A DNA stretch of 37,207 nucleotides from a virus. The first letter of the stretch is position 1, and every line of letters begins with the position of its first letter. The stretch covers positions 1 through 37,207 of IMG/VR virus record IMGVR_UViG_3300020468_000022. The stretch is one strand, 5' to 3'. Below are positions 17,609 to 29,438 of this stretch, piece by piece. Both the position numbers and the translations under genes were made by a program. The notes beneath the pieces were generated by a model. It saw only the letters and a list, made by a program, of their open reading frames with translations. It searched no databases and was not told the DNA's origin.

Positions 17609-17831
17609 AGCGGCTGAAATGGCTTTAATTGAGTTAGATAAAGTAATACGCCAAAAAATTGATTTAGCCGAGCTTGATCCTGAAAAAGCAAAAATTGCAG
17701 CACAAGCAAAATGGGCAGCAATAGAAGATTCTTTTAAAATTATAGATAGAATAGAACAAGTAGATAATACTAAAAAAGAAACAGAAAAAGATTCTATTAA
17801 ATTTTTAGGTGTTGAAAATCGAGTTAAATAA
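17583..17831 (+). CDS. Small terminase subunit candidate
   Basis: An 82-residue, mostly helical, charged protein (for example AAEMALIELDKVIRQ and AKIAAQAKWAAIEDSFKIID). It overlaps the co-chaperonin gene by 26 bases and its TAA overlaps the ATG of the terminase large subunit. Small helical proteins at this position often serve as terminase small subunits that recognise the packaging site. There is no obvious helix-turn-helix motif and the protein is short, so the assignment rests mainly on position. Its ATG has an AATATTAAAT leader matching other starts here. Confidence 0.5.
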   Translation: MDRRKKIIEAAEMALIELDKVIRQKIDLAELDPEKAKIAAQAKWAAIEDSFKIIDRIEQVDNTKKETEKDSIKFLGVENRVK

Positions 17832-20065
17832 TGTATAAACAAATATTATATAATGTAAGCTTAAAGCATCTTAGTTCTAAAAAAGTTAAAAATAATAATA
17901 GATACAAAAAATATAAATACGGATATAACGAAGATCTTGATTGTGTTATAATCGGTAAAGATGGAACTATTGGTGAAATATACGAGATTCAAGGTCTTAG
18001 AATAGGTTTACCCTTAGCTCCTAAAAAAATAGATGGTAATGAACTTAACAAAAGTTCACAGGTGTTTAGAAGAAGACAAAAACCTTCTTCATTAAAAAAA
18101 ATAAGATCAGTCCATGAATTTAAAACGTTACCAGAAGATATTAAAGAAGAGTACTACGATTATATTGATGCTGAGTTTAATAGGCGTAATGATGGCTACT
18201 GGTTCATGTGCAACGGGTCCCCGTGTTATCTTACAGGATCGCATTATATGTACCTTAACTGGACAAAAATCGATATTGGCGCTCCAGACTTTAGACAATC
18301 AAACAAATTATTCTTTTATTTCTGGGAAGCTTGCAAAGCAGACGAAAGATGTTATGGAATGTGCTACCTCAAAAATAGACGGTCTGGGTTTAGCTTCATG
18401 GCATCATCAGAAACTGTTAACTTGGCTACAGCATCAAGAGATTCAAGATTTGGTATATTATCCAAATCAGGAGCAGATGCTAAAAAAATGTTTACCGACA
18501 AAGTAGTTCCAATATCATCAAACTATCCATTCTTTTTTAAACCAATACAAGATGGAATGGATAAACCTAAAACAGAATTATCTTATAGAGTACCCGCTTC
18601 TAAACTTACTAGAAATAGTTTTAAAGTAAAAACTGAAGAATCAGAAGAAGGTTTGGATACTACTATAGACTGGAAAAATACAGGTGATAACTCTTATGAC
18701 GGTGAAAAGCTAAAACTGTTAGTTCATGATGAGTCTGGTAAATGGGATAAACCTGATAATATTTTAAACAATTGGAGAGTTACAAAAACTTGTTTAAGAC
18801 TAGGGGCACGAGTTGTTGGTAAATGTTTAATGGGATCAACTTCAAACTCACTTGATAAAGGAGGCGAAAACTTTAAAAAACTTTATGATGACTCAGATCT
18901 TACAAAAACAAAGCGAAATCGCAATGGGCAGACTGCTAGTGGATTATATGCTATGTTCATACCTATGGAATGGAATTACGAGGGATTCATCGATAAGTAT
19001 GGATTTCCTGTCTTCGATACTCCAGAGGAACCTGCTAAAGGAATCGATGGGGGAACTATCTACAATGGAGTTATCGAGCATTGGGAGAATGAAGCAGATG
19101 GACTTAAAAACAATCCTGACGCTTTAAACGAATTTTATAGGCAATTTCCAAAAACAGAGCAGCACGCTTTCAGAGATGAAACAAAAGAGTCTATATTTAA
19201 TTTAACAAAAATATACGAACAAATAGATTATAATGAAGAGCTAATGCTAAAAGGCTATATAAACAAAGGCTCTTTTCAGTGGAAAAATGGTGTTCAAGAT
19301 ACAACAGTAGAATGGCATCCTAATCCGCATGGTAGATTTAAACTATCTTGGATACCTCCTGTTTCAATGCAAAACGTTATTGAAATAAAAAATGGGATTA
19401 AATATCCTGGTAATCCTGACTTTGGTTCTTTTGGTTGTGATAGCTATGATATCAGCGGAACAGTTGATGGAGGTGGATCTAATGGTGCTCTGCATGGTTT
19501 AACTTCTTTTAATATGCATGAAGATGTCCCTAGCACACATTTCTTTTTAGAATATGTTGCAAGGCCTCAAACGGCTGAAATATTTTTTGAAGATGTTTTA
19601 ATGGCAATTGTTTTTTATGGCATGCCTATTTTAGCGGAAAACAATAAACCAAGATTATTATATTATTTAAAAAGAAGAGGGTATAGAGGATACTCTATGA
19701 ACCGTCCAGATAAATTATTTAATAAGTTATCAATTACAGAAAAAGAATTAGGTGGTATACCTAATAGTTCTGAAGATATAAAGCAGGCACACGCTTCAGC
19801 TATAGAGTCCTATATAGAAACATATGTAGGCAGGCTTGAAAGCGGAGATCACGGTAATATGTATCTTCAAAGAACATTACAGGACTGGTCAAAATTCAAT
19901 ATTAATAATAGAACAAAATATGATGCTTCCATTAGCAGTGGCTTAGCAATTATGGCTTGTCAAAGACATTTATATGCACCAAGAAGTGCTAGAGAAAAAA
20001 AGAAAATAGATTTTGGATTTTCTAAATATAATAATTCAGGATTAAAAAGTAAAATAATACAATAA
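17831..20065 (+). CDS. terL: Terminase large subunit
   Basis: A 744-residue DNA-packaging motor protein that should cut concatemers and translocate DNA into the head. The ATPase part shows an unusual Walker A-like segment KNRRSGFS (residues 181-188), a Walker B at LLVHDE with D300-E301, and an MGSTSN segment after it typical of motif III. The nuclease part has GCDSYDISG around D537-D540. The MFTDKVVPI and RPQTAEIFFEDV motifs are what I remember in terminases of uncultured marine and crAss-like phages. It is coupled to the small upstream gene and is followed 3 bases later by portal. Confidence 0.92.
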   Translation: MYKQILYNVSLKHLSSKKVKNNNRYKKYKYGYNEDLDCVIIGKDGTIGEIYEIQGLRIGLPLAPKKIDGNELNKSSQVFRRRQKPSSLKKIRSVHEFKTLPEDIKEEYYDYIDAEFNRRNDGYWFMCNGSPCYLTGSHYMYLNWTKIDIGAPDFRQSNKLFFYFWEACKADERCYGMCYLKNRRSGFSFMASSETVNLATASRDSRFGILSKSGADAKKMFTDKVVPISSNYPFFFKPIQDGMDKPKTELSYRVPASKLTRNSFKVKTEESEEGLDTTIDWKNTGDNSYDGEKLKLLVHDESGKWDKPDNILNNWRVTKTCLRLGARVVGKCLMGSTSNSLDKGGENFKKLYDDSDLTKTKRNRNGQTASGLYAMFIPMEWNYEGFIDKYGFPVFDTPEEPAKGIDGGTIYNGVIEHWENEADGLKNNPDALNEFYRQFPKTEQHAFRDETKESIFNLTKIYEQIDYNEELMLKGYINKGSFQWKNGVQDTTVEWHPNPHGRFKLSWIPPVSMQNVIEIKNGIKYPGNPDFGSFGCDSYDISGTVDGGGSNGALHGLTSFNMHEDVPSTHFFLEYVARPQTAEIFFEDVLMAIVFYGMPILAENNKPRLLYYLKRRGYRGYSMNRPDKLFNKLSITEKELGGIPNSSEDIKQAHASAIESYIETYVGRLESGDHGNMYLQRTLQDWSKFNINNRTKYDASISSGLAIMACQRHLYAPRSAREKKKIDFGFSKYNNSGLKSKIIQ

Positions 20066-20068
20066 AAA

Positions 20069-22429
20069 ATGGCAGAAGCTACAGGACAAATTACCCAATT
20101 TCCCAGCCAATCCGTAAGTGACGCGAAAAAAGCTAGCGAAGATTATGGAATGGAAGTGGCTAGAGGTATTCAGAACGAGTGGTTCAGAAAAAACTCTGGA
20201 ACGGGTAGATTTTTACAAAACCAACGTGAGTATCATAGATTAAAATTATATGCGCGCGGTGAGCAATCTGTTCAAAAATATAAAGATGAATTTTCTGTTA
20301 ATGGAGATTTATCATATTTGAATTTAGACTGGAAGCCCGTTCCTATAATACCAAAGTTTGTTGACATTGTTGTTAACGGCATGCAAGACAGATTGTTTAC
20401 TGTTAAAGCATTTGCTCAAGACCCAACTTCTGTTAAAGAAAGAACCAACTTTGTTGAAATGGTAATGGAGGATATGAATACTCAAGATCTAATTTCGACT
20501 ATAGATGAACAGCTAGGTGTAGATGTTAGAAACGTAAAAGAACAAGATTTACCGTCAAGTCCCGAAGAACTGGAACTTCATATGCAAATTGGTTATAAAC
20601 CATCAATTGAGTTAGCACATGAACAAGCTATTGATAATGTATTTAAAAGAAATAGTTATCCTGAAATAAAAAAGAGATTAGACTATGACCAAACTGTATT
20701 AGGTATTGCTGCTGCTAAACATACTTTTAACAATACAGACGGTATAAAATTAGAATACGTAGATCCTGCTAATTTAATATATTCATATACTGAAGATCCT
20801 AACTTTGACGACGTGTATTACTTCGGTGAAGTAAAGCAAGTAAAGTCTAATGAACTAAAAAAACAATTTCCAAATTTTTCTGATGAAGAGTTTGAACAAA
20901 TAATAAAACAATCGTCTAATTATAATAACTACGATTACGTAAACAATGATTCTAGTGATCAAACAGATAGTAATACTTTAACAGTATTGTATTTTAATTG
21001 GAAAACGTGGGAAAATAGTGTTTTTAAAATAAAAGAAACATCAAGCGGTGCAAAAAAAGCAATTAAAAAAGATGATACTTTTAATCCGCCCAAAGACCAA
21101 AGATCAAGATTTGAAAAAGTAGCACAAGCAAGAGAAGTAGTTTATGAGGGAGTTATGGTGCTGGGTGCTAATAAACTTCTTAAATGGCAAAAAGCATCTA
21201 ATATGGTTCGTCCTGATTCTAATGTTAATCAGGTAATGATGAATTATGTAGTAAGTGCACCTAGAATGTATAAAGGTAAAATTGAAAGTTTAGTAGGTAG
21301 AATGATAACCTATGCTGATTTAATTCAATTGACTCACTTAAAATTACAACAAGTAATACAAAGAATGACGCCTTCTGGCGTTTATGTTGATGCTGATGGG
21401 CTTGCAGAAGTTGATTTAGGTAATGGATCTAATTATAATCCTCAAGAAGCGCTAAATTTATATTTTCAAACAGGATCTATTATAGGTAGATCTATGACTG
21501 TTGACGGAGATATGAACAGTGGTAAAGTGCCAATTCAAGAGTTGCCCGGAGGTGGTGGACAACAAAGTCAATTGCTTATACAAGCATATAATTATTATAT
21601 GCAAATGCTTAGAGATGTAACTGGGTTAAATGAAGCAAGAGATGGCACAGACCCAGATCCTTATGCTTTAGTAGGTGTGCAAAAATTAGCGGCAGCAAAC
21701 TCTAACACTGCAACAAGACATATATTGCATAGCTCTTTGTATATAACAACTACATTAGCCGAGGCAATATCTATAAGGGTAAAAGATGTTTTAGAATTCC
21801 ACCCGCAAAGAGATGCAATGATTGGGGGTATTGGCAGGTTTAGCGTTGGTGCTTTAAAAGAAATGAGTACACTTCACCTGCATGACTTTGGCATATTCTT
21901 AGAACTAGATCCTGATGAAGATGAAAAACAACTTGTTGAAAACAATATACAAGCAGCATTATCAAGAGATCAAATATTCTTAGAAGATGTTATTGATATA
22001 AGACAAATAAAAAATATAAAGTTAGCAAATCAATTATTAAAATATAGAAGAACCAAAAAAGAAGCTACTGATCAAATGAAAGCAGAAAGAAACATTGCTG
22101 CTCAATCACAAGCTAATGCACAAGCTGCGCAAGCGGCTGAACTTGCTAAAGCGCAGGCTGAAAATATTAAAGTAGAATCTAAAGGTAAGTTAGCACAATT
22201 GCAATCACAATTAGAACTTGCTAAGTTAGAAAAAGAAGCTGCAACTAAAAGAGAACTTATGCAATATGAGTTTGATTTAAATGTTAAGCTAAAAGAAATG
22301 GAAATTGACGGTAAAAAACAATTAGATTTACAAAAAGCTCCAACAAACCCGGAGCCTAAAAAAGGGTTTGAGTCTTCTGGCAATGACGTATTAGGCGGAA
22401 TTGATTTAAGCAGATTTGAACCAAGATAA
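20069..22429 (+). CDS. Portal protein
   Basis: A 786-residue protein at the position expected for portal, between terminase and capsid. The portal core occupies roughly residues 30-620 (for example FVDIVVNGMQDRLFTVKAF, then VTGLNEARDGTDPDP around residue 524-538 where portals of this group carry a conserved LNE/RDG turn). From about residue 668 to 758 the protein is an Ala/Gln/Lys/Glu-rich coiled coil (AQAAQAAELAKAQAE). Twelve copies should form the DNA-entry ring at one capsid vertex and bind terminase and ring proteins. Long helical C-termini are typical of crAss-like portals. Confidence 0.88.
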   Translation: MAEATGQITQFPSQSVSDAKKASEDYGMEVARGIQNEWFRKNSGTGRFLQNQREYHRLKLYARGEQSVQKYKDEFSVNGDLSYLNLDWKPVPIIPKFVDIVVNGMQDRLFTVKAFAQDPTSVKERTNFVEMVMEDMNTQDLISTIDEQLGVDVRNVKEQDLPSSPEELELHMQIGYKPSIELAHEQAIDNVFKRNSYPEIKKRLDYDQTVLGIAAAKHTFNNTDGIKLEYVDPANLIYSYTEDPNFDDVYYFGEVKQVKSNELKKQFPNFSDEEFEQIIKQSSNYNNYDYVNNDSSDQTDSNTLTVLYFNWKTWENSVFKIKETSSGAKKAIKKDDTFNPPKDQRSRFEKVAQAREVVYEGVMVLGANKLLKWQKASNMVRPDSNVNQVMMNYVVSAPRMYKGKIESLVGRMITYADLIQLTHLKLQQVIQRMTPSGVYVDADGLAEVDLGNGSNYNPQEALNLYFQTGSIIGRSMTVDGDMNSGKVPIQELPGGGGQQSQLLIQAYNYYMQMLRDVTGLNEARDGTDPDPYALVGVQKLAAANSNTATRHILHSSLYITTTLAEAISIRVKDVLEFHPQRDAMIGGIGRFSVGALKEMSTLHLHDFGIFLELDPDEDEKQLVENNIQAALSRDQIFLEDVIDIRQIKNIKLANQLLKYRRTKKEATDQMKAERNIAAQSQANAQAAQAAELAKAQAENIKVESKGKLAQLQSQLELAKLEKEAATKRELMQYEFDLNVKLKEMEIDGKKQLDLQKAPTNPEPKKGFESSGNDVLGGIDLSRFEPR

Positions 22430-22459
22430 TTTTTACAAACTATTATATATTATTAAATT

Positions 22460-23677
22460 ATGGCAAAGTGGACAGTAAAAGGCACAGTTGATAACGAGCC
22501 TAAGTCAAAAAAAGAAACAGAACAAGCGGTTCTTAATAAAGCTGTTGAAAAAGGAGAAATAGATCCTCAATCAGCGGGTAAAGAATCAGATGAAACACCA
22601 AAAATTAATTTAGATGCCGTTCAGAAGCAAAGCACAGATGAGGTTCCTGTACGCGACGAACCCGGAACTAGCGAAGAAGTTCAAAAGGAAAACAAAGAAA
22701 AGAAAGTTGAAGAACCTACCGGAGAGGATAAACAGGAAGAGTCGCCGATCGAAATTATCAAAGAAGAGAAAATTGAGGAGGGGACTTCGCAGCCTAAAGT
22801 CGATACGAACGCGGCTAAAGTAAATGAAATACCGGAGCAAAAAGAAAAAGCTCCCGAACAAAAATTACCAGAAGATATTGATAAACTAGTTAAGTTTATG
22901 GATGATACTGGAGGGTCTCTTGAAGATTATGTTAATATGAATAGGGATGTTTCAACATTATCTGACGCAGAATTATTACGTCAATATTATTCACAAGCAA
23001 AACCTTGGGACTCAAAAGAAATTTCAGAATACATGGAAGATAATTTTACGTATGATGAAGAAACTGAAGAGCCCAAAGAAATTCGCGCAAAAAAACGCGC
23101 ATATAAAGAAGAACTTCATAATGCACGTAAGTTTTTTACAAGTCATAAAGAAAAGTATTATACGGATCTTAAGTTAAACCGTCAAAAAGAAATTCCTGAA
23201 GATTATGTAACTGCTTATAATGCATATAATGAATATCAACAAGGACAAGAGTCTAGTAAACAACTTAACCAGATTTTTTTAGAAAGAACAGATAACATTT
23301 TTAACGACGCTTTTAAAGGTTTTGATTTCCAAGTTGGAGACAATAAATACCGATATAAAGTAAATAATGTTAATGAAACAAAACGAATGCAATCTGATAT
23401 TTCTAACTTTATCAAACCATTTATGAATGATAAAGGTGAAATTGGCAATGTCGCAGGCTATCATAAAGCCTTATTCGCTGCAAGAAATGCGGATAGAATA
23501 GCACAACATTTTTATGAGCAAGGCCGTGCCGATGCTTTAACACAAAATGCTAAAGAAGCTAAAAACATTGATATGAGTCCTCGACAAGAAGGTGTCATAG
23601 AAACAAAAGCTGGCCAAAAATTTAAAGTTGTTTCAGGAGATTCTAGTTCAAAACTAAGAATTAAACTTAAACAATAA
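22460..23677 (+). CDS. Scaffold-like or head assembly protein with acidic linker
   Basis: A 405-residue protein between portal and major capsid, the usual place of a scaffold. Residues 1-135 are strikingly low complexity, rich in Glu, Lys, Pro, Ser and Asp, and probably disordered. From about 140 to 405 it is hydrophilic and helical, with aromatic and basic residues and the end SSSKLRIKLKQ. Codons in the part overlapped by the nested gene at 22614-22823 include an unusual number of G/C-ending codons (CGC, CCG, GCG, TCG, GGG), unlike the rest of the gene. No protease motif is visible. Function is inferred from position. Confidence 0.78.
   Translation: MAKWTVKGTVDNEPKSKKETEQAVLNKAVEKGEIDPQSAGKESDETPKINLDAVQKQSTDEVPVRDEPGTSEEVQKENKEKKVEEPTGEDKQEESPIEIIKEEKIEEGTSQPKVDTNAAKVNEIPEQKEKAPEQKLPEDIDKLVKFMDDTGGSLEDYVNMNRDVSTLSDAELLRQYYSQAKPWDSKEISEYMEDNFTYDEETEEPKEIRAKKRAYKEELHNARKFFTSHKEKYYTDLKLNRQKEIPEDYVTAYNAYNEYQQGQESSKQLNQIFLERTDNIFNDAFKGFDFQVGDNKYRYKVNNVNETKRMQSDISNFIKPFMNDKGEIGNVAGYHKALFAARNADRIAQHFYEQGRADALTQNAKEAKNIDMSPRQEGVIETKAGQKFKVVSGDSSSKLRIKLKQ
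22602..22613 (+). promoter_or_regulatory. AAATTAAT leader for nested gene
   Basis: The bases before ATG 22614 read AAATTAATTTAG. The AAATTAA(T) element recurs before many starts here (e.g. 271, 15889, 27659), and TAATTTAG also precedes ATG 4408. No Shine-Dalgarno sequence is seen. This context supports translation starting at 22614, although the same bases also encode the host reading frame. Confidence 0.45.
22614..22823 (+). CDS. Nested small basic phage protein, +1 frame (SKAQMRFLYA family)
   Basis: A 69-residue protein encoded wholly inside the scaffold-like gene in the +1 frame. Its start, MPFRSKAQMRFLYATNPELA, fits a recurring short phage protein pattern (MPFxSKAQxRFLxAxxPELAKK, ending LPE) that I recall as a free-standing gene in many phages. 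The remainder is very basic (for example RKSRRSKLSKKRKLRRG). G+C is about 45% (95 of 210 by hand) against about 31% in the next 120 bases, and the host frame here shows rare codons, as dual coding would produce. It is a candidate real overprinted gene; function unknown. Confidence 0.68.
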   Translation: MPFRSKAQMRFLYATNPELAKKFKRKTKKRKLKNLPERINRKSRRSKLSKKRKLRRGLRSLKSIRTRLK

Positions 23678-23688
23678 AAATTTAAAAA

Positions 23689-25143
23689 ATGTCATTAACA
23701 ACTGGAATAGAACATTTAACCCCTTCGCCTAGCAAAGGGCAATTGTTCCAAGGTAATTATATTACCGATTTTGATTTTACAAAACAATTTTTACCAGACG
23801 TATACGAAAAAGAAGCTGAGATTTATGGAAATAGATCTATCGGTTCATTTTTACGTATGGTGTCTGCGGAGATGCCTTCTGCCTCTGATGAAATCAGATG
23901 GGTAGAACAAGGTAGATTACATATTAGATACGACAATGTAGCTATTGGTTCTGTTGAAACAGGAGGTACAGCAGGCGTAACACCTTTTACTATAACTTTT
24001 GGCACTAATCCTGACGGCGCTTCTGCTGGTACTGCACAAGTACCTGCAATTAGAGTGGGTCAAACGATTATGGTCCAAGGGCAAACTGCTGCTGGTGCAG
24101 CTACAGGTCCTGTTTTAAAAGGAGTTGTTACAACTGCGGGTGCCAATTCAAGCTCTACTCAAGGTACTTTTAAAGCTATTTGTTATACTGCTGCTAATTT
24201 TACAGGCGTAACCGGTGCAGCTAGTTATAGTAAAGCCACTGTATTAGTATATGGTTCTGAATTTGCAAAAGGAACTGACGGTATGACAGGAGCTATTGAC
24301 TCTTCATATATGAGTTATACTAATAAGCCTATTATTTTAAAAGACAACTACAACATCAACGGTTCTGACACTGCTCAGATTGGTTGGATTGAAGTTACTT
24401 CTGAAAATGGTGCTTCTGGATACTTATGGTATTTGAAGTCTGAGCATGAAACAAGACAAAGATTTGAAGATTACTTAGAAATGTCTATGGTAGAGGCTGT
24501 TAAAAAAACAGCATCAACAGCAGGCTTTCCTACAAACGTAACTGGATCTGAAGGTCTATTTGCCGCTTTAGAAGGTAGAGGTAATGTATTTGCGGATCTT
24601 TCCTCTGATACAGATCTTTCTGACTTTGATATTATTTTAAAACAATTAGATAAAAACGGTGCGATTGAAGAAAATATGATTTATGGAAATCGTGCATTAT
24701 CTTTATCTATTGATGATGGATTAGCTTCTAAGAATTCTTATGGGTCTGGAGGTACTTCTTATGGAGTATTTAATAACTCAGAAGAAATGGCTTTAAATTT
24801 AGGATTTGCAGGTTTTAGAAGAGGTTCTTATGACTTTTATAAAACTGACTGGAAATACTTAAATGACTTTGCTACTAGAGGCGGATTCGGAGATATTGAA
24901 GGTGTTATTATACCGGCAGGTACATCAACTGTATATGATCAAGAATTAGGTCAAAATATTAAAAGACCATTCTTACACATCAGATATAGAGCATCTGAAA
25001 CTGATGATAGAAAAATGAAAACTTGGATCACTGGTTCTGTAGGTGGAGCTTATACTTCTACTACCGACGAAATGCGAGTTTCTATGCTATCTGAAAGATG
25101 TTTGATTACTCAAGGGGCAAACAACTTCTTCTTATTGAAATAG
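23689..25143 (+). CDS. Major capsid protein
   Basis: A 484-residue protein with the signatures of a crAss-like or marine phage capsid: YITDFDFTKQFLPDVYEKEA, then YGNRSIGSFLRMVSAEMP, then IRWVEQGRLHI. The arrangement suits an HK97-type fold with a beta-insert region (about residues 85-200, TGAASYS and similar Ala/Gly/Thr-rich loops). The C-terminal part contains DEMRVSMLSERCL. No maturation protease or cleavage site is evident to me. It ends in a hairpin terminator, fitting a highly expressed gene. Hundreds of copies build the head; the GroEL/ES genes may support its folding (inference). Confidence 0.88.
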   Translation: MSLTTGIEHLTPSPSKGQLFQGNYITDFDFTKQFLPDVYEKEAEIYGNRSIGSFLRMVSAEMPSASDEIRWVEQGRLHIRYDNVAIGSVETGGTAGVTPFTITFGTNPDGASAGTAQVPAIRVGQTIMVQGQTAAGAATGPVLKGVVTTAGANSSSTQGTFKAICYTAANFTGVTGAASYSKATVLVYGSEFAKGTDGMTGAIDSSYMSYTNKPIILKDNYNINGSDTAQIGWIEVTSENGASGYLWYLKSEHETRQRFEDYLEMSMVEAVKKTASTAGFPTNVTGSEGLFAALEGRGNVFADLSSDTDLSDFDIILKQLDKNGAIEENMIYGNRALSLSIDDGLASKNSYGSGGTSYGVFNNSEEMALNLGFAGFRRGSYDFYKTDWKYLNDFATRGGFGDIEGVIIPAGTSTVYDQELGQNIKRPFLHIRYRASETDDRKMKTWITGSVGGAYTSTTDEMRVSMLSERCLITQGANNFFLLK

Positions 25144-28307: not shown

Positions 28308-29438
28308 ATGCCTTTAACAATAGGTGAGACTACTGCAACAATATCGGCCTCCTTAACTAACGACAGTGTTAATGTAACGTCAGAAGGTTTTTATTATGGT
28401 TACAAAACGGCAAGCAATACCGCTTTAACCTTAAGTGAGTTAATCAATGGTGGTACGGGTATAACTAGATTTACTGTAACAAATTCTAATGTTAGAAATA
28501 AATTTATTAAAGATATAACTAGTTTGCCTAGTGGCAAGCTTGTTAGCTATGCTGGATTTGCTGTTAATTCCGTAGGAACGGGCAATGGTAATATAAGAAC
28601 ATTTACAACTAAAACCCCACCGCCTGTTAATAGAATAGATGGAACAGAATATGTTATTGTGCCCACTATACAAGATCAGACTTCTGGTAATGCTACCGAC
28701 GAACTTTCTCATAGACAAGTAGGGTATGGAAGTTTTTTTAAAACAAGTGGTGACTGTTATTTAACTATAACAGCCCCAGCTAATTCAGGGTTAAGAGCAG
28801 ATGCAGTAGACCTAAGTACTGTTGATGATAATATGGCAGGATTTTCTTCTACTCCTTCAGGATTAACTTTTACTAAAGCAAACGGGGCTGACGCTAATAC
28901 TAAAATAGCTTGCGTTTTTGTTAGTAATTTTGCCGCAAATACTAGTTACGAAATAACCGTAGGGGGCAGCGGGAGTCCCTATTCTCTTTCTGGTACAGTA
29001 TTACCTAAAACAATAAGAATAAATAATGGATCGCCTTCGGGAACTTTTTATACTTCTACTTTAAATTTAAATTTAACAGGAGTGCACGTTGCTAATGCTC
29101 ACATTAATTCTTATAAATATAACAAAGGCGTAACTTTTGCGCCAACTGCAACATTTATATTAGGGCCAGTGGCCGGAGACGAAATAGTAGACTGTATAAT
29201 ACCTTTAAATAATGCAACTACTGAAATAACTTCAACTTCTGCTTCTGCTTTTGCAAGTTCATTTAATCCAGCAAATATTTCTGTAACAGTTACTGGAAAA
29301 ACAGAAGGCGTTGATTTTGATTATTATGTTGAAGACACTTCTACAGCAATATTTGGGACCGTACCTGGAATCATATTTAGAGGAAAGCCACAACGGTTAG
29401 GGGCAACTCCAACTGTTAATATAACATATACTACGTAA
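28308..29438 (+). CDS. Ig/FN3-like structural protein inserted in hub gene cluster
   Basis: A 376-residue protein. Residues about 1-105 form an FN3-like unit: IGETTATISASLTND, then EGFYYGYKTA, then LTLSELINGG, then YAGFAVNSVGTGNGNIRTFT. The same sub-motif order (GF-x-Y/V then L/V-x-E/D-L/I-I-x-N-G) recurs in the 1421-residue gene downstream. Residues about 105-376 are further beta-rich, Asn/Thr/Ser-rich modules ending VNITYTT. An in-frame TAA lies just upstream of ATG 28308, so the start is well bounded. Its TAA overlaps the next ATG. Probably a surface module of the tail hub complex. Confidence 0.75.
   Translation: MPLTIGETTATISASLTNDSVNVTSEGFYYGYKTASNTALTLSELINGGTGITRFTVTNSNVRNKFIKDITSLPSGKLVSYAGFAVNSVGTGNGNIRTFTTKTPPPVNRIDGTEYVIVPTIQDQTSGNATDELSHRQVGYGSFFKTSGDCYLTITAPANSGLRADAVDLSTVDDNMAGFSSTPSGLTFTKANGADANTKIACVFVSNFAANTSYEITVGGSGSPYSLSGTVLPKTIRINNGSPSGTFYTSTLNLNLTGVHVANAHINSYKYNKGVTFAPTATFILGPVAGDEIVDCIIPLNNATTEITSTSASAFASSFNPANISVTVTGKTEGVDFDYYVEDTSTAIFGTVPGIIFRGKPQRLGATPTVNITYTT

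Follow-up and report, generated by a model that had tools for sequence, protein, structure and literature searches.

A small basic gene of a widespread phage family overprinted in the +1 frame on the linker of a structural-block gene

We analysed a 37-kb virus record, IMGVR_UViG_3300020468_000022 (positions 1 to 37,207; 37,207 nt), which we refer to as the window, and focused on a 69-codon open reading frame (ORF) that lies out of frame within a gene of its structural block. As judged from sequence comparisons across relatives, which show purifying selection on the nested frame, this ORF is a genuine protein-coding gene overprinted on an acidic low-complexity linker. The explanation that best accounts for the data as a whole (an overprinted gene that has its own internal start and belongs to a widespread family) is in our judgment likely to be correct. 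A sequence-only reading of this DNA had reported the nested frame and had proposed as checks a search for stand-alone homologs, the conservation of the frame in relatives and the synonymous variation in each frame, and all of these came out in favour of a gene.

Results

A gene between the portal and capsid genes holds a small basic ORF in its +1 frame

The structural block of the window runs in the order terminase, portal, 405-aa gene and capsid-type protein, with the following features.

17831-20065: terminase gene, first gene of the structural block
20069..22429, + strand: portal protein gene (phrog_6547, E 1.7e-135)
22460..23677, + strand: host gene of 405 aa between the portal and capsid genes, whose acidic N-terminal linker houses the nested gene
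22594..22613, + strand: leader of the nested gene, A-rich and with no Shine-Dalgarno sequence; a TAG in the +1 frame abuts the nested ATG
22614..22823, + strand: nested gene for a small basic phage protein (MPFKSKAQ family, phrog_1375-like), 69 codons plus stop in the +1 frame of the host gene
23689..25143, + strand: gene for a capsid-type virion structural protein (phrog_13704, E 1.4e-93), the query for fetching relatives

Since the terminase of the window matches isolated phages of Flavobacterium, Cellulophaga, Maribacter and Tenacibaculum, the bacterial host of this virus probably belongs to the marine Bacteroidota. The terminase gene also contains two long + strand ORFs, at 18114-18506 (130 aa, ATG) and 18852-19127 (91 aa, TTG).

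The conserved core of the 405-aa host gene is its C-terminal part of about 285 aa. The sequence-only reading had called this gene scaffold-like, which is a purely positional label: the gene does lie between the portal and capsid genes, but it matched no family in Pfam or PHROGs. Its homolog in the Flavobacterium phage elemo carries the annotation "structural protein." The leader of the host gene (22440-22459 in the window) is nearly pure A/T and strongly conserved across 89 relatives, with about 4% G+C and an A at -3 in 100% of them, and may serve as a late promoter or as an element for initiation. We also considered TATTATTAAATTATG, found before the host gene, as a repeated promoter and rejected it because its 14 matches in the window, against 11.2 expected, are not an enrichment.

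Within the host gene, the nested ORF was found at exactly 22614..22823 (+ strand, ATG start, 69 aa, MPFRSKAQMRFLYATNPELAKKF...), entirely inside ORF 22460..23677 and in its +1 frame, as had been reported. Its other described features were borne out as well. From the geometry of the frames, nested codon position 2 coincides with the wobble position of the host frame (host position 3), while the nested wobble position is host position 1. The region is G+C-rich, at 45.2% compared to 35.7% upstream and 31.7% downstream in the host gene, and it is preceded by the leader AAAAATTAATTTAG. The nested protein has a net charge of +28, and the host residues beneath it have one of -10. That acidic Glu codons would read as Lys/Arg when shifted by +1 is correct in that the mirror is present, host GAA, CAA and AAA codons giving Lys/Arg when read one base later, but as a codon effect it is uninformative about origin.

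The ORF had also been assigned to a recognisable small phage protein family, and this holds, the family being of the phrog_1375 type, which PHROGs places in the function-unknown class. The window's protein matches phrog_1375 weakly (E 0.0038); stand-alone relatives, which align with it, do so at down to E 2.3e-7. No Pfam match above cut-offs was obtained for nested or stand-alone members. The family pattern reads MPFKSKAQxRFLYAxxPxxAKK..., followed by a Lys-rich tail. In 53 aligned members, nested and stand-alone, M1, P2, S5, Q8 and P17 are invariant and A20 is at least 90% conserved; more diverged nested members relax S5 and P17.

The nested frame recurs in relatives, always in +1

In a first set of 80 loci, fetched via the capsid protein among the matches listed, with a choice blind to the nested ORF, 48 have an MPFKSKAQ-type ORF, invariably in +1, in the gene that precedes the capsid gene, and two further loci (L025 and L032) have a diverged form, MPYSGSQLKACK. 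A second set of 120 distinct host genes combines the capsid-fetched loci with loci found through the nested protein itself and is biased towards carriers. There, the motif occurs in +1 at the same place in 89 genes, never in the other two forward frames, and the nested gene is missing from 31, frequencies that rest on matches listed in collections and are not population estimates. Many of the contigs are fragments, and absence of the nested gene from elsewhere in a genome could rarely be shown. No copy was detectable in Cellulophaga phage phi38:1 or Maribacter phage Panino. With no copy detected in these two phages and none in the 31 host homologs, the nested gene is dispensable on an evolutionary scale.

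Some loci are unusual. On a Crocinitomicaceae metagenome-assembled genome (MAG) contig (L191:5808-5876), a stop cuts the nested copy to 22 codons, which reflects decay or a sequencing error. Two contigs binned as Woesearchaeota MAG RS366 (L181 and L195) bear the phage block with the nested gene and are probably misbinned phage contigs.

The family is found as stand-alone genes and inside a second, giant gene

Stand-alone homologs are present in unrelated phages. In phage 023Pt_psg01, the family member is an annotated 39-aa gene (28335-28454) between portal and head genes, and short ORFs resembling it are present in phage C75C1, Streptomyces phage Fabian, Prochlorococcus phage P-RSP2 and Synechococcus phage S-CBS2. 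Stand-alone copies also lie on many viral and MAG contigs, several of them near terminase, portal, internal virion or head genes. At L140:6001-6939, a 312-aa acidic low-complexity protein begins, in frame, with the small basic domain.

The cultured Flavobacterium elemo phages (one record examined in detail) and ctfjg026 have a scaffold-gene homolog with no nested copy. Their copy of the nested protein is found, again in +1, within a giant gene of some 3,700-3,900 codons, which is annotated as structural in elemo; the nested ORF of elemo starts at 52512 in NC_055854. By tblastn, the nested protein is present in all 68 Flavobacterium elemo records, and the public records of elemo and ctfjg026 annotate nothing for their nested copies. 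The same +1 nesting in a giant gene is seen in L127, L165, L196 and the MAG contig L183; when the giants of L127 and L165 were compared, the sole similar stretch found was that beneath the nested gene. These comparisons show the family to be nested in +1 inside two unrelated virion genes.

Since stand-alone homologs occur in unrelated phages, an origin of the nested family in the host linker is improbable, and an older portable gene that became lodged there is the likelier reading. Its distribution, which is not restricted to carriers of the host gene, argues against a de novo overprinted gene. It is conceivable that the gene arose de novo in the host linker and then spread to other phages as a separate gene; the acidic linker also exists where there is no nested gene and would readily give a basic +1 protein. 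We consider this unlikely, given the stand-alone relatives in Prochlorococcus, Synechococcus and Streptomyces phages and on contigs from many bacterial MAGs, and given the second, unrelated giant gene, although the protein is too short for a rooted tree that would give the direction of descent. The sequence-only reading had suggested that one frame may have been built upon the other; the stand-alone spread speaks against this in the sense of birth from the linker and points to an older portable gene lodged there.

Amino-acid-level conservation over about 40 codons, together with the stand-alone copies, favours a function for the protein. This makes it very unlikely that the nested ORF works chiefly in cis, by tuning host-gene translation through its own and with a product of little importance, even though it starts inside the host gene, where its ribosomes would also terminate.

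The overlap coincides with reduced synonymous variation in the host gene

We compared rates of change in 38 independent pairs, for which the overlap covers 1775 codons. In the overlap, host positions 1, 2 and 3 change at.186,.092 and.115, compared to.154,.099 and.254 in the linker upstream,.194,.120 and.276 in the linker just downstream, and.112,.061 and.269 in the host core. The synonymous variation of the host frame is thus suppressed exactly where the nested frame lies. Position 1 changes more than position 3 in the overlap in 32 pairs, with four pairs showing the opposite (sign test 2e-6), while none of the 38 pairs does so in the core. Nine pairs without the nested gene give the usual pattern in the linker (.302,.234 and.456). 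Because the position 1 rate in the overlap about equals that of the rest of the linker, the data suggest that the host frame there is still under some constraint as well.

A chance test was performed with a hidden Markov model (HMM) built without the window's own clade. The real +1 frame scores 60.2 bits, whereas 5000 shuffles of the host gene among synonymous codons yield at most 36.0. Under synonymous shuffling, the chance of an equally long open +1 frame has a median of 0.22 over the 89 carriers, which makes openness by itself too weak as evidence for a gene.

We give hardly any credence to the idea that the nested frame is an untranslated by-product, in which a Glu-rich linker shifted by one base yields a Lys-rich open frame. 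Openness is indeed cheap, and in Maribacter phage Panino a long Lys-rich stretch is open in +1 but lacks such a start. However, as a full explanation the idea is already refuted by the confinement of the wobble flip to the overlap and by the low scores of the shuffles. Also against it are the existence of stand-alone homologs and the behaviour of a neighbouring 76-aa +1 ORF in the host gene (22947-23177), which lacks comparable constraint. We rejected this neighbour as an ordinary chance ORF: most of its changes are at host position 3 (0/0/4, 3/3/15 and 4/0/19 at host positions 1/2/3 for the window vs L002, L006 and L003, respectively), and there is a stop inside it in the close relative L006.

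The nested gene has an A-rich leader and upstream stops in its own frame

In all 89 carriers, an in-frame (+1) stop lies between the host ATG and the nested ATG, a median of 5 codons upstream of the latter. Nested leaders have A at -13, -12 and -11 in 88, 87 and 80% of cases, compared to 40, 54 and 46% at other linker sites of the same codon phase, as well as A at -6 in 84% and A at -3 in 72%, likewise above such sites; Shine-Dalgarno-like 4-mers occur in 1%. The window's own leader has a T at -3. Adenines at these leader positions stimulate initiation in Flavobacterium johnsoniae (PMC6847099). Because of the upstream stops and the A-rich leaders, independent internal initiation at the nested ATG, and not frameshifting, is the simplest reading. 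Expression by +1 frameshifting, as a fusion to the N-terminus of the host protein, would suit the placement of the nested frame (same strand, downstream of the host start and in +1), but it has virtually no chance of being correct in view of these stops and of family members outside the host-gene site, which begin at the same Met-Pro. With internal initiation, ribosomes would start independently at the nested AUG on late structural mRNA via an A-rich signal of the Bacteroidota type, and the basic protein would thereby be made alongside the portal, scaffold-like and capsid proteins.

The nested gene has probably been gained, lost or replaced repeatedly

On a tree of the host core (a quick tree, with some long branches and an unsure root), the presence of the nested gene needs 13 changes, at least 9 of which are forced by starred branches. 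Close relatives differ in the nested gene, as in L031/L044 vs L037, L041 vs L053, and L022/L035 vs L038/L039; in the pairs L031/L037, L041/L053 and L022/L038, the flanking DNA aligns well whereas the nested block does not. Another lineage, comprising L024 (2574-2768) and L204-L217, has a different protein, MAYQAKMPKKPGCGCPTMNCQCQ...SPYKMTESPLKKYGCSKK, which is Cys-rich with SPxK repeats and lies in +1 at the same site. This second overprint shows the wobble flip too: host positions 1, 2 and 3 change at.130,.055 and.072 in the overlap and at.059,.029 and.174 elsewhere, in five informative pairs that are partly related.

The host linker looks like a repeated docking site, and the distribution of the gene leads us to infer that it moves as a small cassette between phages. 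A broader proposal sees the low-complexity linkers of virion genes as sites where portable out-of-frame genes dock, with overprinting arising by acquisition of a ready-made gene and not by birth, and it strikes us as about evenly poised. For docking, a pre-existing small gene would have to enter in such a way that its -1 frame prolongs the host protein. The linkers of virion genes would be permissive to this: reading Lys codons from one base earlier yields Glu, Gln or Lys, except where that base is T. Across lineages, the nested gene would then undergo loss, replacement by unrelated cassettes and renewed acquisition.

The nested protein is predicted to be helical and is highly charged

The AlphaFold model of the nested protein is confident and mostly helical (mean pLDDT 88.5, pTM 0.55). 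Searched with this protein, Foldseek returned nothing below E 7 from the PDB; BFVD yielded only weak matches (best E 0.02), the top ones being uncharacterised phage proteins. There were weak matches to the N-termini of the virion structural PHROGs 25121 and 22033; among proteins of solved structure, matches to "Cake/Scone" proteins were discarded as the sum of many weak repeats of about 5 bits each. The net charge of the nested proteins ranges from +8 to +28. The high positive charge, the head-module setting and the weak virion N-terminus matches point towards a head- or DNA-associated role, to which we give somewhat less than even odds. Tentatively, the product might act in head assembly or in the virion by binding DNA or the acidic scaffold-like protein, and such binding would go through the helical N-terminus and the Lys-rich tail.

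Discussion

The usual explanation of overlapping genes is the birth of new proteins within old ones, and our findings suggest that gene acquisition into a tolerant linker is a route to such overlaps. They also suggest that unannotated proteins form a further layer in the virion modules of marine Bacteroidota phages. Since the giant-gene version is present in cultured Flavobacterium elemo phages, for which Flavobacterium sp. BAL314 provides a culture system, its expression and function are directly testable.

Same-strand overprinting is a known kind of arrangement, and overprinted viral genes such as the internal overlaps of PhiX174 have been reviewed (PMC8227390). The nested gene resembles these in being a complete +1 gene, in that both frames are selected and in lying on a low-complexity host stretch. 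Classical overprinted genes are read as de novo, phylogenetically restricted and mostly of small genomes (PMC8227390); in contrast, ours belongs to a widespread family and lies inside two unrelated host genes of tailed phages. The "gene 77" block of crAss-like phages has the order terminase, portal, putative structural gene and major capsid (PMC7886860), which is the order in the window; the words "overlapping" and "nested" are absent from the main text of that paper. With phrog_1375, the window's nested protein shares the same small phage protein core, but the giant-gene copies of elemo and ctfjg026 are unannotated in public records. In the open-access literature we found no description of the nested gene, nor any account of a gene from a widespread stand-alone family that lies nested, in one and the same relative frame, within two unrelated virion genes, with a second, different protein overprinted at one nesting site. 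In phage lambda, the Nu3 scaffold is nested in gene C and is read in the same frame as C. The gene that we report is similar to Nu3 in having an internal start nested within a head-assembly gene and differs from it in being out of frame with its host gene.
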